Shown: positions 1,937-24,669 of the stretch, one piece after another | Position numbering within the stretch: the first letter of the stretch is position 1 | Layout: the number at the start of each line of letters is the position of its first letter | DNA from: Phycisphaeraceae bacterium | GTDB taxonomy: Bacteria; Planctomycetota; Phycisphaerae; Phycisphaerales; Phycisphaeraceae | NCBI GenBank assembly: GCA_029260595.1 | Contig: JAJDCY010000026.1 | Location: forward strand, 1 to 35,354 | Direction of reading: 5' to 3' | DNA: 35,354 nucleotides | Notes under the pieces: model-generated | The model's database searches: none | Told to the model about the DNA's origin: nothing | The model's input: only the letters and a program-made list of their open reading frames with translations | Made by a program: the position numbers and the translations under genes

Positions 1937-2737
1937 CTACGCGGCAATACGGCGAGAGGAACGCCCCTTGTTCCAACACTCCACCACGAGGCGGTAGGAG
2001 ATGGTCGCCCGTGAGTTATCCCCCGCGCCATACAGCCCCGAGGATGCCGCGCCGATGATCTTAGAGATCCAAGTCGCCGCCGTGCCGGATTTGCGCAGCT
2101 TAGCCGCGAGGACGGATGGAGTGGCCTCCTCGCCGTGCAAGTGCAGGAACCGTGCAACCCCCTCAATGAGCGGCCCCTCCCACGACTCAGGCGCTGAGTC
2201 CCAGGCTTCCTTGATGGTGTCGAGCGCCCGACCGAGTACCGCCGGACCCCGTATCTCGGCGATGCGCAGGAGCGTGGCTACGGCTCTGATCTCCCTGGTC
2301 TTGTGACGCCCTACGGCCAAGCCACGGTCGCCTAGAACCCTCTCGACATCGACGTACGGACTCAGTCCCGCGGTCACGCCGACCTTGTACTGCTCCAGTG
2401 GCTTAGGCTTGCGGCTTTCGCGGTTTTTTATCAGGAAAAGCTGGGCCTGTTCCTCCCGGTTAATCCCCCGGTGGACCTCGGCTTCCATCTCTGTGAGCCC
2501 CGCCTTCGCCGCGGCCAGTGCTCGGTGCATGCCGTCCACGATGGATAGCGCCCCGTTGTAGTCGGCGAGAACGAGAGACCCCGCGGCGTTGGGCATGAAG
2601 TTCGCCGCCATGCTGTTCACCCTTCTGATGTTGACCTCGCGCTGCGCGTCCTCGTGGACGATCAGGTCGGCCAGCACGACCTTTACGCCGTAGTCGATGT
2701 GGTGGTCCCGTATCGTATAGTTAATATTGTTTGCCAT
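1937..2737 (-). CDS. ParB/sulfiredoxin-like domain protein (DUF6551-like)
   Basis: 266 residues. The ATG is preceded by GGAGGAGG. The N-terminal half has the ParB-fold pattern: a segment with DAQREVNIRRVNSMA, then LVLADYNGALSIVDGMHRAL containing the GxHR motif typical of ParB/Srx-like folds (about residues 56-75), then a region resembling the DUF6551 proteins common in actinophages (LFLIKNRESRKPKPLEQYK). Members may bind DNA or nucleotides; the exact activity in phages is not settled. The C-terminal 130 residues look helical. It is the promoter-distal gene of the long leftward unit. Confidence 0.8.
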   Translation of the reverse strand: MANNINYTIRDHHIDYGVKVVLADLIVHEDAQREVNIRRVNSMAANFMPNAAGSLVLADYNGALSIVDGMHRALAAAKAGLTEMEAEVHRGINREEQAQLFLIKNRESRKPKPLEQYKVGVTAGLSPYVDVERVLGDRGLAVGRHKTREIRAVATLLRIAEIRGPAVLGRALDTIKEAWDSAPESWEGPLIEGVARFLHLHGEEATPSVLAAKLRKSGTAATWISKIIGAASSGLYGAGDNSRATISYRLVVECWNKGRSSRRIAA

Positions 2738-2785
2738 TGTGTTGCCTCCTCCGGTTATGGCCCGCGGTGGGGCCGGGTTTATCGG

Positions 2786-3139
2786 TCAGTCTTTAAGTCC
2801 TAGTTCACCTACCCGTCGGATGATGTCGAGACAGCCCTCCGGGTCTTTCTTGATTTGGTCCGTAGTGAAGACGAGCGGCGTGTAGCCGTTGAGCGCGCAC
2901 AGATTCACCTTCAGCGCATCTCGGGCGATGCCGGCACCGCGGGCGTGAGCCCCACCACTATAGGTACCGCCGTGGATCTCGATAGCTATGCGTAGCCTCG
3001 GATGCACAATGTCCCAACGGTGCTTGGTGTGGGGTTTGTTGAGCACCACCTCACGCTCAAAGCCGTCTAGGCCGCGGGCCTTGAGGTAGTTAGCGAAACC
3101 CTGGGCGGCGTCGGCCTTACCCCCGGACGGCTTAGGCAT
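2786..3139 (-). CDS. PD-(D/E)XK-type endonuclease (VSR/DUF559-like)
   Basis: 117 residues. The core reads FEREVVL, then KHRWDIVHP, then LRIAIEIHGGTY, then RDALKVNLCALNGYTPLVFT. This matches the compact PD-(D/E)XK nuclease layout, with the RWD aspartate as metal ligand and EIHGG standing where E-x-K is usual, His replacing Lys. Such proteins act as nicking or resolving nucleases in phage recombination or packaging. The start MPKPSGG was chosen over a longer frame because the extra 46 residues are Arg/Cys/Ser-rich and not protein-like. It overlaps the upstream gene by 8 bases. Confidence 0.75.
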   Translation of the reverse strand: MPKPSGGKADAAQGFANYLKARGLDGFEREVVLNKPHTKHRWDIVHPRLRIAIEIHGGTYSGGAHARGAGIARDALKVNLCALNGYTPLVFTTDQIKKDPEGCLDIIRRVGELGLKD

Positions 3140-3404
3140 AGAGCGCCCCTGGCACATGGACGCACTTGTCGCAGCGGTGAGCGGGGCACCGCAGGGCCTC
3201 CCGCTCCTCGGCGCACCGACGGCAATCCCCGACGTACTCCAGCAGGCCCTCCTCGAGGCTCTGGACCTCCGCTTCAAGGCCGTCGATCTCTTGATTTAGG
3301 TCGCGCTCGCACTGCTGGTAGCCCTCCTCCTCGCCATCCTCACGACCCTTCGTGTAGCCTTCGTCGAACGCAGCCTGCTCTTTCTCTGTTCGTTTGTCAC
3401 TCAC
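3132..3404 (-). CDS. Acidic coiled-coil protein with C-terminal cysteine cluster
   Basis: 90 residues from a GTG preceded by GGAGG. Residues about 1-55 are highly charged and heptad-like (EGYTKGREDGEEEGYQQ, then LEAEVQSLEEGLLEYV), predicting a coiled coil. The tail has two CxxC-like pairs (CRRC, CDKC) plus a further Cys-Pro-x-His, which could bind zinc. No family recognised. The GTG overlaps the stop of the RHH/zinc-knuckle gene by 8 bases. Confidence 0.75.
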   Translation of the reverse strand: MSDKRTEKEQAAFDEGYTKGREDGEEEGYQQCERDLNQEIDGLEAEVQSLEEGLLEYVGDCRRCAEEREALRCPAHRCDKCVHVPGALYA

Positions 3405-3624
3405 CGAAAAGCCTCCTCTGCATGGGGCACTTCTTCCAGGTGTGCCCGTCCTGGTTGCACAGCGAGCACTGGGTTGTGCTCGTATCCTCTCGTCGCAGGT
3501 CGTCCGACACCTGGTTATGCAGGACGGAGATGGCGAACTCCCCCATTGAGATACCGCGCTTAGCTGCGGCACGCTGCACGGCCCGGTAGACCTGCGGGTT
3601 TAGGTCGATTCGCAGCTGAGCCAT
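3397..3624 (-). CDS. Ribbon-helix-helix protein fused to a CCHC zinc knuckle
   Basis: 75 residues. Residues 3-40 (LRIDLNPQVYRAVQRAAAKR, then GISMGEFAISVL) have the beta strand-helix-helix pattern of Arc/MetJ-type DNA-binding proteins. Residues about 53-66 (CSLCNQDGHTWKKC) are a perfect C-x2-C-x4-H-x4-C zinc knuckle, a single-stranded nucleic acid-binding motif best known from retroviral nucleocapsids. The fusion suggests a dimeric DNA-binding protein that also contacts single-stranded DNA or RNA. The ATG lies in a TAATG context one base past an upstream stop. Confidence 0.85.
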   Translation of the reverse strand: MAQLRIDLNPQVYRAVQRAAAKRGISMGEFAISVLHNQVSDDLRREDTSTTQCSLCNQDGHTWKKCPMQRRLFGE

Positions 3625-3627
3625 TAC

Positions 3628-4005
3628 TCATGCGCTCCCTGGGGCGTGATGCCGTCGATGGCAGGCTGCACACAGAATTTCGGCGTTCGCTGTGCTGTCC
3701 TCCCCACCACGCGCTCGATGTTGTCTGTGATGCAACTGAAGCGTACCTGGTCTACCGCAGCGTTCACACCGCCATCCGGCACGGTCCAGTGCATCGAGTT
3801 CCCATTGCTGTCGGTGAGATAGATTGTGTACATGCTCTGCCTTCCATTGTGGTAGGCACTCGAAGACCACAGCCTCGATCATGCCCGCGTCGGTGTCCCC
3901 GTTGGTGATTCTCGCGATCCATAGCGTCTCGCGGAGTTGTTGCTCTAGCTCCCACGGCAACTTCCAGTCGGCATGGAACGTGGTCCAGCCGGATTTCCTA
4001 CTCAT
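3628..4005 (-). CDS. HNH endonuclease (zinc-binding HNH class)
   Basis: 125 residues. The C-terminal 60 residues carry the full HNH signature: WRCERCG, then LQLHHR, then RGGEDSTANAEILC, then CHRRHH. The two CxxC pairs bind a structural zinc, and the HH plus N and final H form the metal site. The N-terminal half (MSRKSGWTTFHADWKLPWEL) is unassigned. In this position it could be a free-standing homing enzyme or a packaging-linked nuclease. The ATG at 4005 overlaps the end of the upstream 56-residue gene by 8 bases. A second same-strand frame (3624-3833) overlaps it and was rejected. Confidence 0.8.
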   Translation of the reverse strand: MSRKSGWTTFHADWKLPWELEQQLRETLWIARITNGDTDAGMIEAVVFECLPQWKAEHVHNLSHRQQWELDALDRAGWRCERCGRPGTLQLHHRQHRARGGEDSTANAEILCAACHRRHHAPGSA

Positions 4006-4168
4006 CGTACATACCACGCCGGATGTCGTCCTTGAGCATGAGGCGGCGCATCTTGCTGTAGAACCGCCGGTACCACTTGTTGTTTGGCGGATGGCGGTGC
4101 CAGTTCCGGCGACGCCAATGAGACAACATGTCGTCCTTTGCGGCCTTCTTCATCACGGGTTCACCCAT
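3998..4168 (-). CDS. Small basic protein, 56 residues
   Basis: Starts at an ATG preceded by CGGAGGCGAC, a strong Shine-Dalgarno sequence, and ends at TAG 3998-4000, overlapping the HNH start. The product is rich in Arg, Lys, Trp and Tyr (SHWRRRNWHRH, NNKWYRRFYSKMRR), suggesting nucleic acid binding. It fills what would otherwise be an empty gap between two good genes, with tight overlap at its end, so I regard it as real. No family recognised. Confidence 0.7.
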   Translation of the reverse strand: MGEPVMKKAAKDDMLSHWRRRNWHRHPPNNKWYRRFYSKMRRLMLKDDIRRGMYDE

Positions 4169-4171
4169 GTC

Positions 4172-4188
4172 GCCTCCGTGTAGCGCGG
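4172..4188 (-). repeat. 17-base leader repeat, copy 1
   Basis: On the minus strand this reads CCGCGCTACACGGAGGC and supplies the GGAGG ribosome-binding site for the gene starting at 4168. An identical copy lies at 4480-4496 in front of the gene starting at 4471. Confidence 0.75.
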
Positions 4189-4189
4189 C

Positions 4190-4471
4190 TTAGGCATCTT
4201 GGCGCAGCGCGGCGGGGGTCGGGGTGCCGAGTTTGCCCTGGTATGGGCGCAGTGGGTGCAGCGAGCAGCCGGTGATGTCGCAATTCCCCACCCGCCACTG
4301 CCAGCACGGGTCGGCGTCGCACCCTTGGCACTCGTAGCACTTCCCTCTGATCGCCAGGGACCGCGACCGGGGATTCGCCGCTGCTTTCTGGATGGGGTCC
4401 AGCACCACGGCTCCTTGCCTCAATTCGGACAGTTTTTTCATATCTACCGAGCTTTTATCGTTGGATTCCAC
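4190..4471 (-). CDS. Cysteine-rich phage protein with CxxC motifs
   Basis: 93 residues from a GTG (4471), with GGAGG supplied by the upstream leader repeat. The middle reads AIRGKCYECQGCDADPC, then VGNCDITGCSLHPLRPY. This resembles small phage zinc-binding proteins of the form R..C..CQGG....V..C....CPL.P.R. A structural zinc site is likely; function unknown. The first 40 residues are charged and probably flexible. Confidence 0.8.
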   Translation of the reverse strand: MESNDKSSVDMKKLSELRQGAVVLDPIQKAAANPRSRSLAIRGKCYECQGCDADPCWQWRVGNCDITGCSLHPLRPYQGKLGTPTPAALRQDA

Positions 4472-4479
4472 TTAATTAG

Positions 4480-4496
4480 CCTCCGTGTAGCGCGGG
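4480..4496 (-). repeat. 17-base leader repeat, copy 2
   Basis: Identical on the minus strand to 4172-4188 and again placed just before a start codon (4471), where it provides GGAGG. A diverged relative at about 4728-4746 lies inside the 3' end of the gene at 4703-5251, where it encodes DPRYT. Confidence 0.75.
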
Positions 4497-4530
4497 TCCA
4501 TGACCGCGCAGCCTAGTATGCCGGTGCCAC

Positions 4531-4686
4531 TCACGCGCTGGACCACGCCACCGACAGCCCGAGCACCGCCCCGCACGCAGCCGCCACGAAGGACCACATA
4601 GCCATGCGCCAGCGATGCACTCGCAGGGCCGCGTCCACCGCCGCCTCTAACCACGCCAACTCTTGTTCTGTTAAGTCCCTTGCCAT
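4531..4686 (-). CDS. Small membrane protein, one transmembrane segment
   Basis: 51 residues from an ATG preceded by GGGGAGGACCAC. Residues 1-28 are polar (DLTEQELAWLEAAVDAAL), followed by a hydrophobic span of about 20 residues (WSFVAAACGAVLGLSVAW) that ends the protein. A single-pass inner-membrane topology with a cytoplasmic N-terminus is likely. No family recognised. About 60 bases between this stop and the next gene hold only the leader repeat. Confidence 0.65.
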   Translation of the reverse strand: MARDLTEQELAWLEAAVDAALRVHRWRMAMWSFVAAACGAVLGLSVAWSSA

Positions 4687-4702
4687 GTGGTCCTCCCCGC
4701 CG

Positions 4703-5251
4703 TTAGGCGTCATGGTGCCCATCGTAGTCCGTATAACGCGGGTCCAGCAGGTTGTCGGTGTACATGGTGAGCGCGGGAATCACGGTCCCCTCGTACGTGA
4801 TGCCGTTCTGCCACGTCCTGCCGTAACCGCAGTAGCAGGCGAAGGCGTGCGAGGCCGCGCGGATGTCGGCCTTGGGGAACTCCAGGTAGGCGTCGTTGGT
4901 AGCCCACCTATGGCCGTCCGTGCGATGCAGGGACACGATGCCGCGGTTCTCACACAGGGGGCAGTCGGGCAGCCTCTCGCCGCACGGCGCACCGCTGGCG
5001 CTACGAGCTTCCTTCAGGCGTTGGTGTATCGTGCCAAACTGGGGGAATCTGCGGGATTCCTTGGGCGTGCCGGGCGCGAAGTCCTGATCTAGGTGCGCTT
5101 TCATGGCAGCGATGACCTCGGGCAGTGTCCATTCTCGCCGGAGCCCCTGGTACCAATCCTCACGGCGTTGGACGTTAGTCGAGTGGTCTTCGTTTAGATT
5201 GTAGTGCTTTAAGAGTCGATTAAACGCTTCGTCGAAACCTGACTTAATCAT
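4703..5251 (-). CDS. Hypothetical protein with a C-terminal zinc-binding site, 182 residues
   Basis: The N-terminal 80 residues are helical and charged (FDEAFNRLLKHYNL, LRREWTLPEVIAAMKAHL). A CPLCENRG motif near residue 97 and CYCGYGR near 139 may form a four-cysteine zinc site. The architecture of a helical N-domain followed by a zinc domain loosely recalls phage replication accessory or helicase-loader proteins, but no diagnostic motif supports that. The ATG overlaps the upstream stop by 8 bases. Confidence 0.75.
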   Translation of the reverse strand: MIKSGFDEAFNRLLKHYNLNEDHSTNVQRREDWYQGLRREWTLPEVIAAMKAHLDQDFAPGTPKESRRFPQFGTIHQRLKEARSASGAPCGERLPDCPLCENRGIVSLHRTDGHRWATNDAYLEFPKADIRAASHAFACYCGYGRTWQNGITYEGTVIPALTMYTDNLLDPRYTDYDGHHDA

Positions 5252-21697: not shown

Positions 21698-22020
21698 ATC
21701 AGGTGGTGCATACACGCTGCACCGAACAAGAGAAGAACCGCTGGACCGCCGCGGCTGAGCTTCACGGCTCCCGCCTCGGCCCATTCTCGCGAAAAGCACT
21801 CGACGAAGCCATTTCCGGCACCGTCATACTCACCACCGTCGCCAGCGGTGAACAATCCGCCACCCAAGCTGCCCGCGAACTCAAAGCCATGTGCATCGAG
21901 GCTAGGAATCGGCTCAGCCTCGTCAAGGACAACTGCTGCAGCAACGGAAACGCCGAATACGCCGACGATATCGACTACGTCACCGCCGTTCTCGGCTCCA
22001 TCAGCAACAAGCTCGGGTAA
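21688..22020 (+). CDS. Ribbon-helix-helix-like protein, 110 residues
   Basis: GTG start with no ribosome-binding site but a -10 box seven bases upstream, so possibly leaderless. Residues 5-40 (QVVHTRCTEQEKNRWTAAAE, then SRLGPFSRKALDEAI) fit the MobC/CopG-like strand-helix-helix form. The C-terminal half is helical (TQAARELKAMCIEARNRLSL). Probably a small DNA-binding regulator; its position two genes before the terminase also allows a packaging role. Confidence 0.7.
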   Translation: MIRDQVVHTRCTEQEKNRWTAAAELHGSRLGPFSRKALDEAISGTVILTTVASGEQSATQAARELKAMCIEARNRLSLVKDNCCSNGNAEYADDIDYVTAVLGSISNKLG

Positions 22021-22046
22021 TCACCCGCAAACCGGAGGAAAGAATC

Positions 22047-22232
22047 ATGCCAATGGGCAAAAGTAGAAGTCCGCAGCGCCGAGACGTGCATTTCGGCAAA
22101 CGCCGCATCATCGCAGCCAAAAAGGCCGAATTAGCCACCGAAATCACCGAAAACCTCGAATCGCGGCCAAAAAAGAAGGCCAAGAAAGCCAAAGCCACGA
22201 AAAAACCGAAAAACGGCGGTCTTCTAGCCTGA
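22047..22232 (+). CDS. Lys-rich basic protein upstream of the terminase
   Basis: 61 residues after CCGGAGGAAAG. An amphipathic start (DVHFGKRRIIAAKKAELATE) is followed by a histone H1-like tail (RPKKKAKKAKATKKPK). It ends one base before the terminase TTG, so translation is coupled. It occupies the place where a small terminase subunit is often found, but lacks a recognisable HTH; nonspecific DNA binding is likely. Confidence 0.7.
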   Translation: MPMGKSRSPQRRDVHFGKRRIIAAKKAELATEITENLESRPKKKAKKAKATKKPKNGGLLA

Positions 22233-22233
22233 A

Positions 22234-24669
22234 TTGAGCACTCCGGGCGACATCAACGCTGGCCGCGAGCAACTACTCGGCGAAGCGGCACAGGAGCACG
22301 CCAGGGCAGCCGCGGCGTCGCTCTCGCGCGCCCGCTCGCTCGAAAGGGAGTACAAACGCCGCAAGAACGAAGAAGCCATCCGCTTCTACATCCCCCACGA
22401 CAAACAAGCCGAATTCCACGCCGATCCAGCCCGAATTCGCTGCGTACTTGGAGGGAACAGGTGTCTAGCCCCCTGGCAGAAGATACACGACCCCGTGACC
22501 AACCAGAGGATGCCAGTTTCGGAGATCACGGGCCCATTCCACGTCATCGCATACGACGGCGAGAAACTGGTGGTGGCGAAGGCCGAGAAGCCGTTCCCGA
22601 AGGAACTCGGGATGATGTACCGGGTCAGCCTTTCGGACGGACGGGATTTCCACGCCTCTGCGTCTCACCGAGTGCTTTGCGCCGACGGCGAGTATCGTGA
22701 GATTTCGCAACTCCAGCCCGGATTCGAGCTTTTCCGTCATCCGTCCAGTTCGGGCACCGGCCTGTCAGCTCATGCCGAAGATGATCGCCGTTCGACGGGA
22801 ACCACTTCAGGTTCACCAGGCGGTTGTCTTTCTTATCTCCGTTCTTGTGGTGAACGACTTCGTCAGGCCGCAGGAAACGTCCTAGCGCCTCCTCCATTAC
22901 CAGCCGGTGCTGCAGCACATACGGGTTCCCCTTTCGACGCCCCTTCGGGGCTTTTCGGGCCAGAACCGTCGGGTGATTCGGGGAGTACACACGGACGTAG
23001 CCGTCCTTGTCTATCACGACCCCACCATTCCAATTCGGGTGCCCGCCACCAGGGCGAGGCCCACGGGACTGAGACTGTATGCCGTGACGCAAGCACGCCT
23101 TCGACACGTTCTTGGTGGTCTGACCTAACTGTTCAGCTACTTCGCGGTGCTTCATTCCCATTTCCTCGATCCAGTACCGCATCTGTTCGACAGGCCAGTC
23201 TATCCGATTGTGAATCGCCATTGGTGGTAATAGATATACGTGAGACGGTCGTTGCTGCCAAATGGGACTTCCACGTCCCCGGTTACAACAACTACTGGTG
23301 TGGCGGTGCGATTCACCATAACAGCGGCAAAACGCACTCCAGTATGGCCGAGGCTTCAGCCCACGCGCTCGGCTACAGGCCGTGGCTGGCGGAGGATGAC
23401 CCGCACTACCGCGCAGACATCCATGTGCCCAATAAGGGGCTACTAGTCGCCGAGTCCTTCGACAAGGTGAAGACAGTCCTGGTTTCGAAACTGCTCGGTG
23501 ATCCCGAATCCGGCTGGCCCGGCATGATCCCGAAAGCCGAGATTGCCAAAACTAAGAAAAATCAACAGGGCGTCGTGAACTTCATCCAACTGAAGAACGG
23601 CTCCACCATGTCGTTTCAGTCCTACGACCAGGACGTCGGCCTGTTTGAGTCGTCCGACTACGACTACGTGGCATTCGACGAGCCGCCGCCCCAGGGCATC
23701 TTCAAGGCCGTCTGGCGCGGACTCACGGACCGGCTCGGTCGCGCGTGGCTCGCCATGACGCCGCTCAAGGAGCCGTGGGTGAAGGAACAGCTGGTGGACG
23801 CTGAGCACGTCTCTACCCACATCTTCTTCATGGACGACAACGTTGGCTTCGGCCTCACGCAGCAGGGCGTGGACGAGTTCATCCGCGAACTAGACGACGA
23901 CGAGATCAAGGCCCGGCGCTTCGGCGAGTTCCTGCACCTACAGGGCCTCGTCTACCGCACCTACGTCCGCAACGCTCAGAAGGTGTTCCGCCGCCCACGC
24001 GAGAAACTGCTCACCCGCAACCACCGTGGGCAAATTTACGTGCCGCGCTCGTGGGGGCTGTGCATGTCGATCGACCCGCACCCTAAAACCCCCCACCGCG
24101 CCGTGTGGGCCACACCACGACCCGACGGCAACCTGATCGTGTGCGGTGAGCTGATTAACCAGGACCCCGAGAACCGCGTGGACGCCTTCGCCGACGACAT
24201 CCTCGCCTACGAGACCGACTTCCTACACTGCGACTACCAGGATGAAATCACCCGACTGATCGACCCGTCATCCCAGATCAACAACCCCGTTGACGGCAAC
24301 AGCATCTGGGACGCCTTCGCTGACAAGGGCATCATTTGCGAGATGGGCAGCAAGGATTTGCAGGGCTGTATCGCTCAAACGAAGAAGCGCATGGCCTACG
24401 ACGCCGACAAGGGTCTGTTCCCAACCATCTTCATGTGCGAGGACCTGGTAGAGTTAGACCGAGAGCTTCGCGGCTACGTCTGGGAAGAATGGCTAACGAA
24501 GCTCGGACAGCAGAAGAACGAGAAGAATGTTCCCAGGGATAAGAACGACCACCTCATTGAGTGCCTGCACCGAATCGTGAAGTACGACCCCGAACCGCCG
24601 CCGGTGATCGGCGCGGAGCAGGACCAGGAATACAGCCGCAGCGTCGGCGCTACAGGGACGGGATACTAG
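22234..24669 (+). CDS. terL: Terminase large subunit interrupted by an intein
   Basis: 811 codons from a TTG one base after the previous stop. The extein (about 524 residues after splicing) is the packaging motor and headful nuclease. Walker A GGNR-SGKT is split between R76 and S364. Walker B is YVAFDE (D482, E483), followed by a coupling-motif-like WLAMTP. The nuclease domain begins near MSIDPHP (D614) and carries further acidic residues (HCDYQDEITRLID). The intein spans residues 77-363 and must be removed to restore the ATP-binding loop, so packaging depends on splicing. The start is inferred from coupling; there is no strong ribosome-binding site. Confidence 0.92.
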   Translation: MSTPGDINAGREQLLGEAAQEHARAAAASLSRARSLEREYKRRKNEEAIRFYIPHDKQAEFHADPARIRCVLGGNRCLAPWQKIHDPVTNQRMPVSEITGPFHVIAYDGEKLVVAKAEKPFPKELGMMYRVSLSDGRDFHASASHRVLCADGEYREISQLQPGFELFRHPSSSGTGLSAHAEDDRRSTGTTSGSPGGCLSYLRSCGERLRQAAGNVLAPPPLPAGAAAHTGSPFDAPSGLFGPEPSGDSGSTHGRSRPCLSRPHHSNSGARHQGEAHGTETVCRDASTPSTRSWWSDLTVQLLRGASFPFPRSSTASVRQASLSDCESPLVVIDIRETVVAAKWDFHVPGYNNYWCGGAIHHNSGKTHSSMAEASAHALGYRPWLAEDDPHYRADIHVPNKGLLVAESFDKVKTVLVSKLLGDPESGWPGMIPKAEIAKTKKNQQGVVNFIQLKNGSTMSFQSYDQDVGLFESSDYDYVAFDEPPPQGIFKAVWRGLTDRLGRAWLAMTPLKEPWVKEQLVDAEHVSTHIFFMDDNVGFGLTQQGVDEFIRELDDDEIKARRFGEFLHLQGLVYRTYVRNAQKVFRRPREKLLTRNHRGQIYVPRSWGLCMSIDPHPKTPHRAVWATPRPDGNLIVCGELINQDPENRVDAFADDILAYETDFLHCDYQDEITRLIDPSSQINNPVDGNSIWDAFADKGIICEMGSKDLQGCIAQTKKRMAYDADKGLFPTIFMCEDLVELDRELRGYVWEEWLTKLGQQKNEKNVPRDKNDHLIECLHRIVKYDPEPPPVIGAEQDQEYSRSVGATGTGY
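22625..23221 (-). CDS. HTH-HNH homing-type endonuclease encoded antisense inside the intein
   Basis: 198 residues on the strand opposite to terL, wholly within the intein. Residues 8-50 contain a helix-turn-helix (WPVEQMRYWIEEMGMKHREV, then AEQLGQTTKNVSKA). A strand-rich region follows (VVIDKDGYVRVYSPNHP). The HNH core is at 101-150: YVLQHRLVMEEALGR, EVVHHKNGDKKDNRLVNL and NGDHLRHE, with H105, H124/H125, N133/N137 and H147 as likely catalytic and metal residues. The last 40 residues are antisense to intein block B and may be only a read-through tail. ATG start; no ribosome-binding site, but a promoter lies just upstream. It presumably cuts intein-less terL alleles. Confidence 0.9.
   Translation of the reverse strand: MAIHNRIDWPVEQMRYWIEEMGMKHREVAEQLGQTTKNVSKACLRHGIQSQSRGPRPGGGHPNWNGGVVIDKDGYVRVYSPNHPTVLARKAPKGRRKGNPYVLQHRLVMEEALGRFLRPDEVVHHKNGDKKDNRLVNLKWFPSNGDHLRHELTGRCPNWTDDGKARIRAGVAKSHDTRRRRKALGETQRRGNPVRPKG
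23233..23261 (-). promoter_or_regulatory. Candidate promoter for the antisense HNH gene
   Basis: On the minus strand TTGGCA (23261-23256), exactly 17 bases, then TATATC (23238-23233). Transcription would start about five bases before the ATG at 23221. It lies within codons of the intein's C-terminal splicing segment, upstream of block F. Confidence 0.55.

Follow-up and report, generated by a model that had tools for sequence, protein, structure and literature searches.

The window, a stretch of 35,354 nucleotides from a genome bin of a Phycisphaeraceae bacterium (contig JAJDCY010000026.1), encodes a large terminase gene (terL) that is interrupted by a predicted intein. Within the intein, on the opposite strand, lies an HNH endonuclease gene. 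The features are the following.

22234..24669, forward strand: terL, an intein-containing large terminase ORF of 811 aa from the ORF list, with a TTG start and no internal stop
22234..22461, forward strand: N-extein, ending ...VLGGNR, the first half of the Walker A motif (intein-free relatives read GGNRSGK)
22462..23322, forward strand: intein of 287 aa, Cys1...His-Asn287 followed by Ser+1, inside the Walker A motif with C1 after GGNR and HN before SGKT
22462..22752, forward strand: intein N-terminal splicing region, aa 1-97, AlphaFold pLDDT ~98 up to residue 90, resembling DnaB and RecA mini-intein structures
22753..23193, forward strand: sense linker, approximately aa 98-244, opposite most of the HNH gene, with pLDDT ~45 and without secondary structure
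23194..23322, forward strand: intein C-terminal splicing region, approximately aa 245-287, pLDDT ≥95 from residue 251
23323..24666, forward strand: TerL C-extein, starting SGKTHSS, the second half of Walker A
22625..23221, reverse strand: HTH-HNH endonuclease gene, 198 aa, ATG start, stop codon included, nested antisense in the intein
23222..23245, reverse strand: bases directly upstream of the HNH ATG, without a Shine-Dalgarno motif in the window phage
23084..23191, reverse strand: helical N-terminal DNA-binding (HTH-like) region, HNH aa 11-46, three helices with pLDDT >90
22793..22912, reverse strand: HNH_3 core, aa 104-143, identified by Pfam and by the motif EVVHHKNGDKKDNRLVNL
22628..22741, reverse strand: HNH C-terminal tail, aa 161-198, with a helix at 161-190, antisense to the conserved intein N-splicing region

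The C-extein matches Pfam Terminase_6N (E 2.5e-05) and the terL product matches the PHROG TerL family (phrog_2, 1.8e-09). The intein-free relative P0004 is 55% identical to the window TerL over 53% of the query, and P0004, P0007, and P0010 all read GGNRSGK without interruption. Residues for splicing are present in the window intein (C1, H69, H286-N287, and S+1); C1, H69, and N287 are invariant across 41 aligned inteins, and C1, the block-B His, the block-F Asp, and the terminal HN are conserved in these inteins. The AlphaFold model has a Hint fold, with probability 1.00 matches to DnaB, RecA, and DnaE inteins. Pfam Intein_splicing gives E 0.024 for the window intein, which falls short of the Pfam cut-off, and matches 26 of 32 sense ORFs at E ≤0.01. 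We predict that the insert is an intein that splices itself out of TerL. Among 100 relatives of the host bin, TerL was found in the window only. The contig is therefore likely to be of phage or prophage origin and to have been placed in the bin with that genome.

The antisense gene, with both ORFs open, lies exactly where the original prediction placed it, and the wobble base of each HNH codon does face the second base of an intein codon. Its description as a complete HTH-HNH gene opposite the middle of the intein agrees with the protein matches to PF13392 (5.5e-10) and to three PHROG HNH families at ≤4.2e-19 (phrog_20891, 1.1e-23), and with the helical structure model (mean pLDDT 83). There are 994 homologous proteins. 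The best Foldseek match to the model is I-HmuI (1u3e; probability 0.99, E 0.029); the match at the sequence level is weak (E 0.39). I-HmuI is an intron-encoded HNH homing endonuclease with which the nested family shares the HNH_3 core, but the family has an N-terminal HTH-like region and a tail of its own. The sense linker had been described as free of endonuclease motifs, and indeed we identified no endonuclease match to it in Pfam. Both strands are constrained where the HNH tail faces the N-splicing region of the intein, which is conserved, and remnants of this tail persist in the mini-inteins L029 and L066. The bases upstream of the window HNH resemble those of loci L071 and L146, and a leaderless promoter was considered; the sense code may account for the similarity.

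The search for other TerL inteins with an antisense HNH that the original prediction had proposed returned 236 nested loci, in TerL and in other P-loop genes, which form 154 clusters at 95% HNH identity. Some contigs had two locus ids across scans, and these duplicates were removed by the clustering. Approximately 150 distinct sequences thus have the two-strand arrangement; they are mostly phage, and one is an Escherichia coli prophage. Two scans of viral contigs used HNH alignments, one made from the window HNH and 13 relatives of unknown context and the other from nine HNHs already known to be nested, and we took the best 80 of at least 579 and the best 80 of 257 confirmed loci. These 160 are the loci that most resemble the query alignments. 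In every one of them the strand opposite the HNH carries intein sequence in the same codon phase: both intein halves in 157 and the C-terminal half only in 3. A call of nesting needed intein matches in the tested phase. Every locus from the two alignment scans had such matches, and for the first 71 loci the phase had been recorded before an intein-phase condition was applied.

An intein-query scan found antisense HNH sequence in 69 of the best 80 loci, two of the 69 being remnants. An earlier and weaker scan, with the window HNH used singly against viral contigs, returned seven loci: L003 and L004 are nested, L005 and L006 are too truncated to classify, and L007, L008, and L009 are remote relatives without intein matches. 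A scan of genome contigs gave two loci, one of them nested. The truncated loci L005, L006, and L082 were assigned to no group. A tblastn search with one intein (a piece of P0080) found no match among phages or plasmids; diverged copies do occur in cultured phages, where the HNH rather than the intein query revealed them. The element is present in isolated and cultured phages (e.g., Pseudoalteromonas phage PHS3), and its carriage by isolated phages implies a working TerL. The pattern E-[VIL]-V-[HD]-H is missing in 10 of 105 representatives, and the HNH frame extends past the intein in 4 of 95.

The decisive evidence that the two open frames are more than a chance overlap is the comparison of these sequences across loci. 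For the 151 usable representatives of the 236 nested loci (151 of 154 clusters), 29,406 HNH codons contain no stop in the intein frame, while the other two antisense frames over the same codons contain 1,059 and 1,375 stops. For the 105 representatives kept from 108 clusters (three were dropped with an HNH core of <90 aa), 551.6 intein-frame stops were expected and none was found; the chance of an open frame is ≤0.01 in 89 of the 105 and >0.05 in 5. Ten control HNH genes, remote relatives outside antisense inteins (L007-L009, L174-L176, and L178-L181, of which L179 sits in a phage methylase gene), have 36 stops versus 37.2 expected, which is the chance level; two of these controls also have none (L178, 79 codons, and L181, 59 codons). 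The avoidance is visible in the protein. Dipeptides of Phe followed by Ile, Met, Thr, Asn, or Lys, each of which makes an intein-frame stop unavoidable, occur at 0 of 401 positions after Phe in nested HNHs, and Ile before an A-initial codon is ATA in 161 of 161 cases, compared with 290 of 1,226 elsewhere. In the window, synonymous shuffling of codons with the HNH protein fixed predicts 5.46 sense stops where none is observed, and only 0.025% of 20,000 shuffles had none. The converse shuffle, with the intein protein fixed, leaves the antisense frame open with P ~0.06, which is weak by itself.

Substitution patterns within the overlap suggest what is being kept on each strand. Nested HNH codon positions 1, 2, and 3 differ at 0.265, 0.209, and 0.516, respectively, and in all 36 pairs the third position, which is the sense second base, is the fastest. 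For the intein on either side of the overlap it is the sense third position that is highest (20 of 21 pairs). These sequence comparisons indicate that the HNH is conserved as a protein and that the sense linker drifts in its amino acids and only avoids stops; conservation of the linker as a protein is ruled out by the rapid sense second base. The original prediction that both frames must be kept is borne out by the lack of stops, and its corollary that neither can drift freely stands insofar as both stay open, but not for the amino acids of the linker, which is also modeled at low confidence. The window HNH has no close nested relative among the loci for a window-specific selection comparison. 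Translation signals were considered at the 99 of 105 representatives with a usable ATG. A strong Shine-Dalgarno motif occurs at 33 of the 99 HNH starts versus 22 of 985 other ATGs (p 6e-23), and 50 of the 99 are without even a weak motif. Both this test and the pair tests covered the loci apart from those of the second alignment scan.

The distribution of the element is informative about mobility. In E. coli it was detected in 1 of 5,426 genomes, as a prophage (MEI003, NZ_CP071263.1), and a query with the empty site matches 772 E. coli genomes at ≥80% coverage; this sporadic presence against empty alleles is the pattern of a homing endonuclease. The E. coli insert, a predicted intein of 336 aa, comprises 1,008 nt exactly between the GFG and SGKT codons, and 949 of 1,000 left-flanking and 923 of 1,000 right-flanking bases are identical to the empty allele, an identity that gives no insertion date. 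Terminase is the commonest extein family among 32 examined (Terminase_6N in 12 and Terminase_3 in 3), and the nested unit also occurs in inteins of DnaX-like clamp loader, primase-helicase, SNF2-type helicase, and SMC-like ATPase genes. HNH clades track the class of insertion site (4 changes versus 17.7 when shuffled), and HNH and intein distances correlate (Mantel r 0.64). The proposed backwards invasion of a mini-intein by a free-standing gene may hold for an ancient founding event, but the two distances are now correlated and no locus departs from the common phase.

Loss of the endonuclease was also observed. A broken HNH beside a kept sense frame, which the original prediction named as counterevidence, occurs in L029 and L066; the breaks there, however, are in-frame deletions with a mini-intein left behind, the decay predicted by a homing cycle. 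The TerL P0002 (69% identity, 60% of the query covered) carries a mini-intein that lacks the HNH, so the host can do without the HNH gene. Mini-inteins and nested inteins interleave on a splicing-domain tree in which 57 of 112 inner branches are unresolved (11 changes, shuffled mean 13.5). On these sequences the interleaving fits repeated loss, and does not by itself prove the direction of change.

Several other explanations were weighed. A GC-rich, low-complexity sense linker could have left the antisense ORF open as a by-product that makes no protein, as the converse shuffle and the lack of a Shine-Dalgarno motif in the window would allow, but the HNH has close to a thousand homologues and a confident model, its change is dominated by the third position in every pair, 33% of HNH starts have a strong Shine-Dalgarno motif, and the arrangement recurs at GC contents from ~0.37 to 0.69. 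For the HNH family, the codon-position and Shine-Dalgarno results already refute this explanation, and we give it next to no chance. It is equally hard to credit that the insert is removed from RNA as a self-splicing intron whose sense frame is open by accident. Antisense homing genes are known in group I introns, according to the available text of one report (PMC9548176), but the intein splicing residues are conserved here, change in the sense splicing region is dominated by the third position, and no sense stop interrupts any of the 151 representatives. Furthermore, Rfam identified no match at E ≤1 in positions 22000-24000 of the window, and no Rfam intron family matched in 11 other loci. 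A split intein was also considered and rejected; in all 151 representatives the sense frame continues across the HNH without a break.

Two further possibilities accept the HNH as a protein and assign it another function. It may be a terminase accessory (an HK97-type packaging or cos nuclease) that is nested in TerL for co-inheritance rather than homing. Terminase is the commonest extein, and HNH proteins beside terminases can serve packaging, as in HK97, and aid cos cleavage, as far as the available text describes (PMC10448857). We regard this role as very unlikely, since the unit also interrupts clamp-loader, helicase, and SMC-like genes, TerL relatives that are intein-free or carry mini-inteins are without the HNH, and occurrence in E. 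coli is sporadic. Alternatively, an HNH that was formerly homing could now be kept for another role, such as cutting competing phage genomes or regulating terL via the antisense transcript. In favor are the age and diversity of the family (154 clusters) and the co-diversification of HNH and intein, which could mean vertical keeping. The sporadic E. coli occurrence, mini-inteins with or without HNH remnants, and spread over unrelated P-loop genes instead fit active homing, and we consider a changed role unlikely.

The arrangement resembles known systems in part. In canonical homing inteins the endonuclease is normally fused in the sense frame and released with the intein. As in these, the endonuclease here splits the splicing domain, lying in our alignment after the N-terminal splicing blocks and ahead of block F, but the HNH forms an independent gene that has its own start and runs on the opposite strand, and none of the 236 nested inteins has an HNH match in sense. 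Dassa in 2009 reportedly described fractured genes, in which split inteins are said to have a free-standing endonuclease gene between halves that are separate genes. There too the endonuclease is a separate gene within an intein, but the sense frame of the elements studied here is continuous. The ShiLan domain of mycobacteriophage DNA methylases has an out-of-frame HNH in an in-frame insertion, for which homing has been proposed, and shares with our loci an HNH in another frame of an insertion without host-frame stops (PMC11855218, available text). It matches the nested HNH family weakly (E 4e-10 and 3e-7). The ShiLan HNH shares the strand of its host gene, no intein splicing domain is detectable in the insertion, and the word "antisense" is absent from the available text (PMC11855218), whereas our HNHs are on the opposite strand of a predicted Hint domain. 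Nuclear group I introns with antisense homing genes, as the accessible portions of two reports describe them (PMC9548176; PMC3679873), likewise place the homing gene opposite its self-splicing carrier; that carrier is an rDNA ribozyme with an untranslated sense strand (PMC9548176). In the nested inteins the sense strand also encodes protein, which puts codon constraints on both strands. The original prediction knew of no standard intein class built this way, and a literature search likewise found no published description of antisense-HNH inteins; a preprint on actinobacteriophage inteins of "non-canonical architecture" (10.1101/2025.01.02.630785) could cover related cases.

We consider it highly probable that the element is a mobile intein with two functions on opposite strands, an intein predicted to splice in sense and a predicted antisense HTH-HNH that likely drives homing into intein-free P-loop genes, based on the splicing residues, the open TerL frame, the HNH in fixed phase and under selection, stop avoidance, and the occupied and empty pair of E. 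coli alleles. The look of a two-strand mobile unit noted at the outset is thereby supported. The HNH would be made from an antisense transcript and would cut intein-free alleles in their Walker A codons, the sequence interrupted by the insertion. Repair may then copy the intein with its nested HNH gene into the cut allele, and TerL would work because the intein splices out together with its disordered linker. Eventually the endonuclease would be lost by in-frame deletion, leaving a mini-intein. More generally, these loci probably represent an ambisense class of mobile inteins, with splicing on one strand and homing on the other, encoded by the same bases in one inherited phase. Such a class would be widespread in phages, in the P-loop codons of essential ATPases, with an endonuclease sequence limited by the opposite-strand protein (no Phe before an A-initial codon, and Ile there encoded by ATA).

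Opposite-strand gene nesting is often suspected to be an annotation error. The nested HNH-intein recurs in diverse forms, and its signature of zero stops in 29,406 codons is statistically unambiguous; it offers a clean natural system for antisense dual coding in which the HNH is kept as a protein and the linker need only stay open. It accounts for terminase genes annotated as incomplete, cut short, or hypothetical, and surveys of sense-frame endonucleases would miss the class or file its members as mini-inteins with odd linkers. The E. coli prophage, the 772 genomes with empty sites, and cultured phages such as PHS3 provide testable material for splicing, cutting, and homing. Nesting could uncouple expression of the endonuclease from that of the host gene, which in-frame inteins cannot do. 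If the ambisense reading is true, a large family of endonucleases is held to the sequences that a second, opposite-strand protein allows.

The 35,354-base contig of the window is binned with a bacterial genome, and because portal and head genes come after terL it is a phage or prophage. The original prediction placed an HNH endonuclease gene antisense inside a terminase intein, with the sense frame open across it. Both parts are borne out by the positions of two genes:

22234-24669, + strand: terL, a single open frame of 811 codons without interruption
22625-23221, - strand: HNH gene within the terL insert, 198 aa, with an HNH_3 domain (E 5.5e-10)

The Walker A motif GGNRSGK is uninterrupted in the insert-free TerL relatives P0004, P0007, and P0010. 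In the window, 287 residues lie between GGNR and SGKT, and since the first is Cys and the last two are His-Asn, we read the insert as a putative intein. Its AlphaFold model has two blocks (residues 1-90 and 251-287) with mean pLDDT of at least 95 each, and residues 98-240, at pLDDT near 45, are without secondary structure. The model matches DnaB, RecA, and DnaE inteins (probability 1.00), and a search with the family profile hits solved DnaB inteins (E 2.5e-14). The HNH protein matches HNH PHROG families (down to E 1.1e-23). Its model (pLDDT 83, pTM 0.51) comprises an N-terminal three-helix region and an HNH core, and the closest solved structure is I-HmuI (probability 0.99, E 0.029). The public protein set (entries P0087 and P0001) lists the HNH plus a TerL of only 481 aa, so a gene caller apparently favored the HNH over the full terL.

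The antisense HNH within an intein is confirmed and widespread. At the insertion site of the window, inteins of 287 to 357 aa with an odd middle also interrupt several TerL relatives. Scanning with the window HNH alone gave seven loci: two nested (HNH gene inside the intein, on the opposite strand), two truncated, and three remote relatives without an intein. A viral-contig scan with nine inteins returned 325 stretches and 116 relatives; among the best 80 of the 116, HNH sequence is antisense in 69, including two short remnants, and the rest are ten mini-inteins and one incomplete locus (L082). An alignment of the window HNH and 13 relatives confirmed at least 579 loci, and antisense intein sequence is present in all of the best 80, with both intein halves in 77 and the C-terminal half alone in 3. 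A second alignment, of nine HNHs of the Taid and PHS3 phage type, confirmed 257 loci, of which the best 80 are all nested with both intein halves. Pooling the scan loci with three cultured phages, L003, L004, L090, and the window gave 236 nested loci in 154 clusters at 95% HNH identity, among them other TerL inteins with an open antisense HNH frame, for which the original prediction had proposed a search. No HNH match was found on the sense strand of the inteins in any of the 236 loci.

The phase between HNH and intein codons is identical in 236/236 loci. A codon-aligned antisense phase, in which no amino-acid pair is forbidden, would be at least equally easy to keep open, and the fixed phase therefore suggests that these inteins stem from one founding event.

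The claim that both frames are kept holds well beyond the window. Across 29,406 HNH codons of 151 representatives (one locus per cluster), the intein frame has 0 stops, versus 1,059 and 1,375 in the remaining two antisense frames. For 105 of these representatives, synonymous shuffling predicts 551.6 intein-frame stops; the chance of openness at a single locus is <=0.01 in 89 and >0.05 in 5. Ten control HNH genes outside such inteins have 36 stops versus 37.2 expected, although two short ones, taken alone, have 0. The zero-stop rule extends into the HNH protein sequence itself. In the observed phase, the opposite strand gains a stop whenever an A-initial codon comes after Phe, and none of 401 Phe residues is followed by I, M, T, N, or K, which follow 22% of all HNH residues. 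Before an A-initial codon, only ATA among Ile codons avoids a stop, and ATA is used in 161/161 cases, versus 290/1,226 elsewhere. Both patterns are consequences of the rule, not separate proofs of it.

HNH codon positions 1, 2, and 3 differ by 0.265, 0.209, and 0.516 over 36 independent pairs, the third being highest in 36/36, and in the flanking intein, which codes on the sense strand alone, change is fastest at the sense third base in 20/21 pairs. The HNH is thus the conserved protein of the overlap, under selection, and the linker (the intein middle opposite most of the HNH) varies freely provided its frame is open. The expectation that neither frame can drift freely therefore stands for the HNH and for openness of both frames, but not for linker residues. 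Translation signals occur in a third of elements: a strong Shine-Dalgarno motif precedes 33/99 HNH starts versus 22/985 other ATGs on the same strand (p 6e-23), and 50/99 starts, including that of the window, are without even a weak motif. A TTACCACCA-ATG context without Shine-Dalgarno lies near the HNH start in the window (23222-23245, - strand) and in loci L071 and L146, all GC-rich; it may reflect a leaderless start or a sense-code constraint. Intein and HNH distances correlate (Mantel r 0.64; 0/2,000 permutations as high; n=101), which indicates that the two travel together. In six loci (L101, L133, L134, L136, L140, and L166), the best HNH-profile match is not the main one but a short stretch upstream of it, perhaps an extra N-terminal DNA-binding domain.

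A Pfam search of 32 chosen sense ORFs identified Intein_splicing in 26, Terminase_6N in 12, and Terminase_3 in 3. Other ORFs have domains of a clamp loader, a primase, an SNF2-type helicase, or an SMC-like ATPase. Insertion sites fall within P-loop codons: among the 105 representatives, 81 lie directly before (S/T/C)-(G/S/C)-K, 19 before Thr, and 5 elsewhere. The left side of the before-Thr class is GK in 17/19 (GK/T of Walker A) and unreadable in two. Site class changes 4 times on the HNH tree versus a shuffled mean of 17.7, a pattern to be expected if site choice is up to the HNH. In L154 (3-3593, - strand), a TerL-like ORF that contains a nested intein also has a weak in-frame LAGLIDADG_3 match (aa 1085-1138, E 0.0016), which may mark a second element within that gene. 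A 1,327-aa ORF with a nested intein (L060:3089-7069, + strand) has a separate second Hint_2 match (aa 937-974, E 0.0004), and possibly holds two inteins. On phage contig L044, a Type-P5 twister ribozyme (Rfam RF02684, 43 bits; 2166-2229, - strand) lies ~2.4 kb upstream of the terL ORF.

Full-length HNH relatives occur in Pectobacterium phages Taid, Pappous, Ymer, Abuela, Sabo, Koroua, and Amona, Dickeya phage Setonix, and Pseudoalteromonas phage PHS3; the nested arrangement was read directly in Taid, Setonix, and PHS3. Insertion in E. coli is sporadic, with the element in 1/5,426 complete genomes (strain MEI003, locus L263), and 772 E. coli genomes cover at least 80% of a 601-base query for the empty site. 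The MEI003 genes are annotated as follows:

2677-3981: TerL, incomplete (pseudogene)
3969-4964: HNH, as a separate gene

Nested inteins also cause annotation errors in Taid (L172), where terL is a "hypothetical protein", and PHS3 (L173), where it is shortened and adjoins the HNH gene on the opposite strand; the Setonix record is without annotation. Relative to the empty allele of strain EC5, the MEI003 insertion is precise: its 1,008 nt fall exactly at the junction of the GFG and SGKT codons, and 949/1,000 left and 923/1,000 right flanking bases are identical. At the L263/L264 terL site, the adjoining Walker A codons are GGT/AGCGGT when occupied versus GGC/TCGGGC when empty and encode the same protein, a trace that co-conversion or site immunity could leave.

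Loci L029 (1187-1375, - strand) and L066 (5164-5481, - strand) have 148-aa inteins with only an antisense C-terminal HNH piece (37% identity over 67 aa and 51% over 41 aa, respectively). This piece is the part of the HNH opposite the conserved N-terminal region of the intein. Both loci resemble remnants of an endonuclease that was lost while the sense frame stayed intact. A broken HNH opposite a kept sense frame, which the original prediction regarded as evidence against itself, reads here as decay within a homing cycle. The closest TerL relative to the window other than itself, P0002 (69% identity over 60% of the query), carries an intein of 148 aa as well, and the three inteins fit a cycle of gain, decay, and mini-intein.

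Our literature search found no paper on an antisense endonuclease inside an intein; a 2025 preprint on non-canonical inteins fell outside its scope. The closest published case found is the ShiLan domain, as described in PMC11855218: an out-of-frame HNH inside a methylase insertion without splicing domains, on the same strand, whereas here the HNH is antisense in an intein. Antisense homing genes are described in nuclear group I introns (PMC9548176), but there the carrier is RNA and here it is an intein. Canonical homing inteins encode the endonuclease in frame, a feature that the nested elements lack, and we file them as putative homing inteins of an ambisense form. The HNH would be transcribed antisense and cleave empty sites, the intein element would be copied in by repair, and the TerL precursor would splice out the intein.
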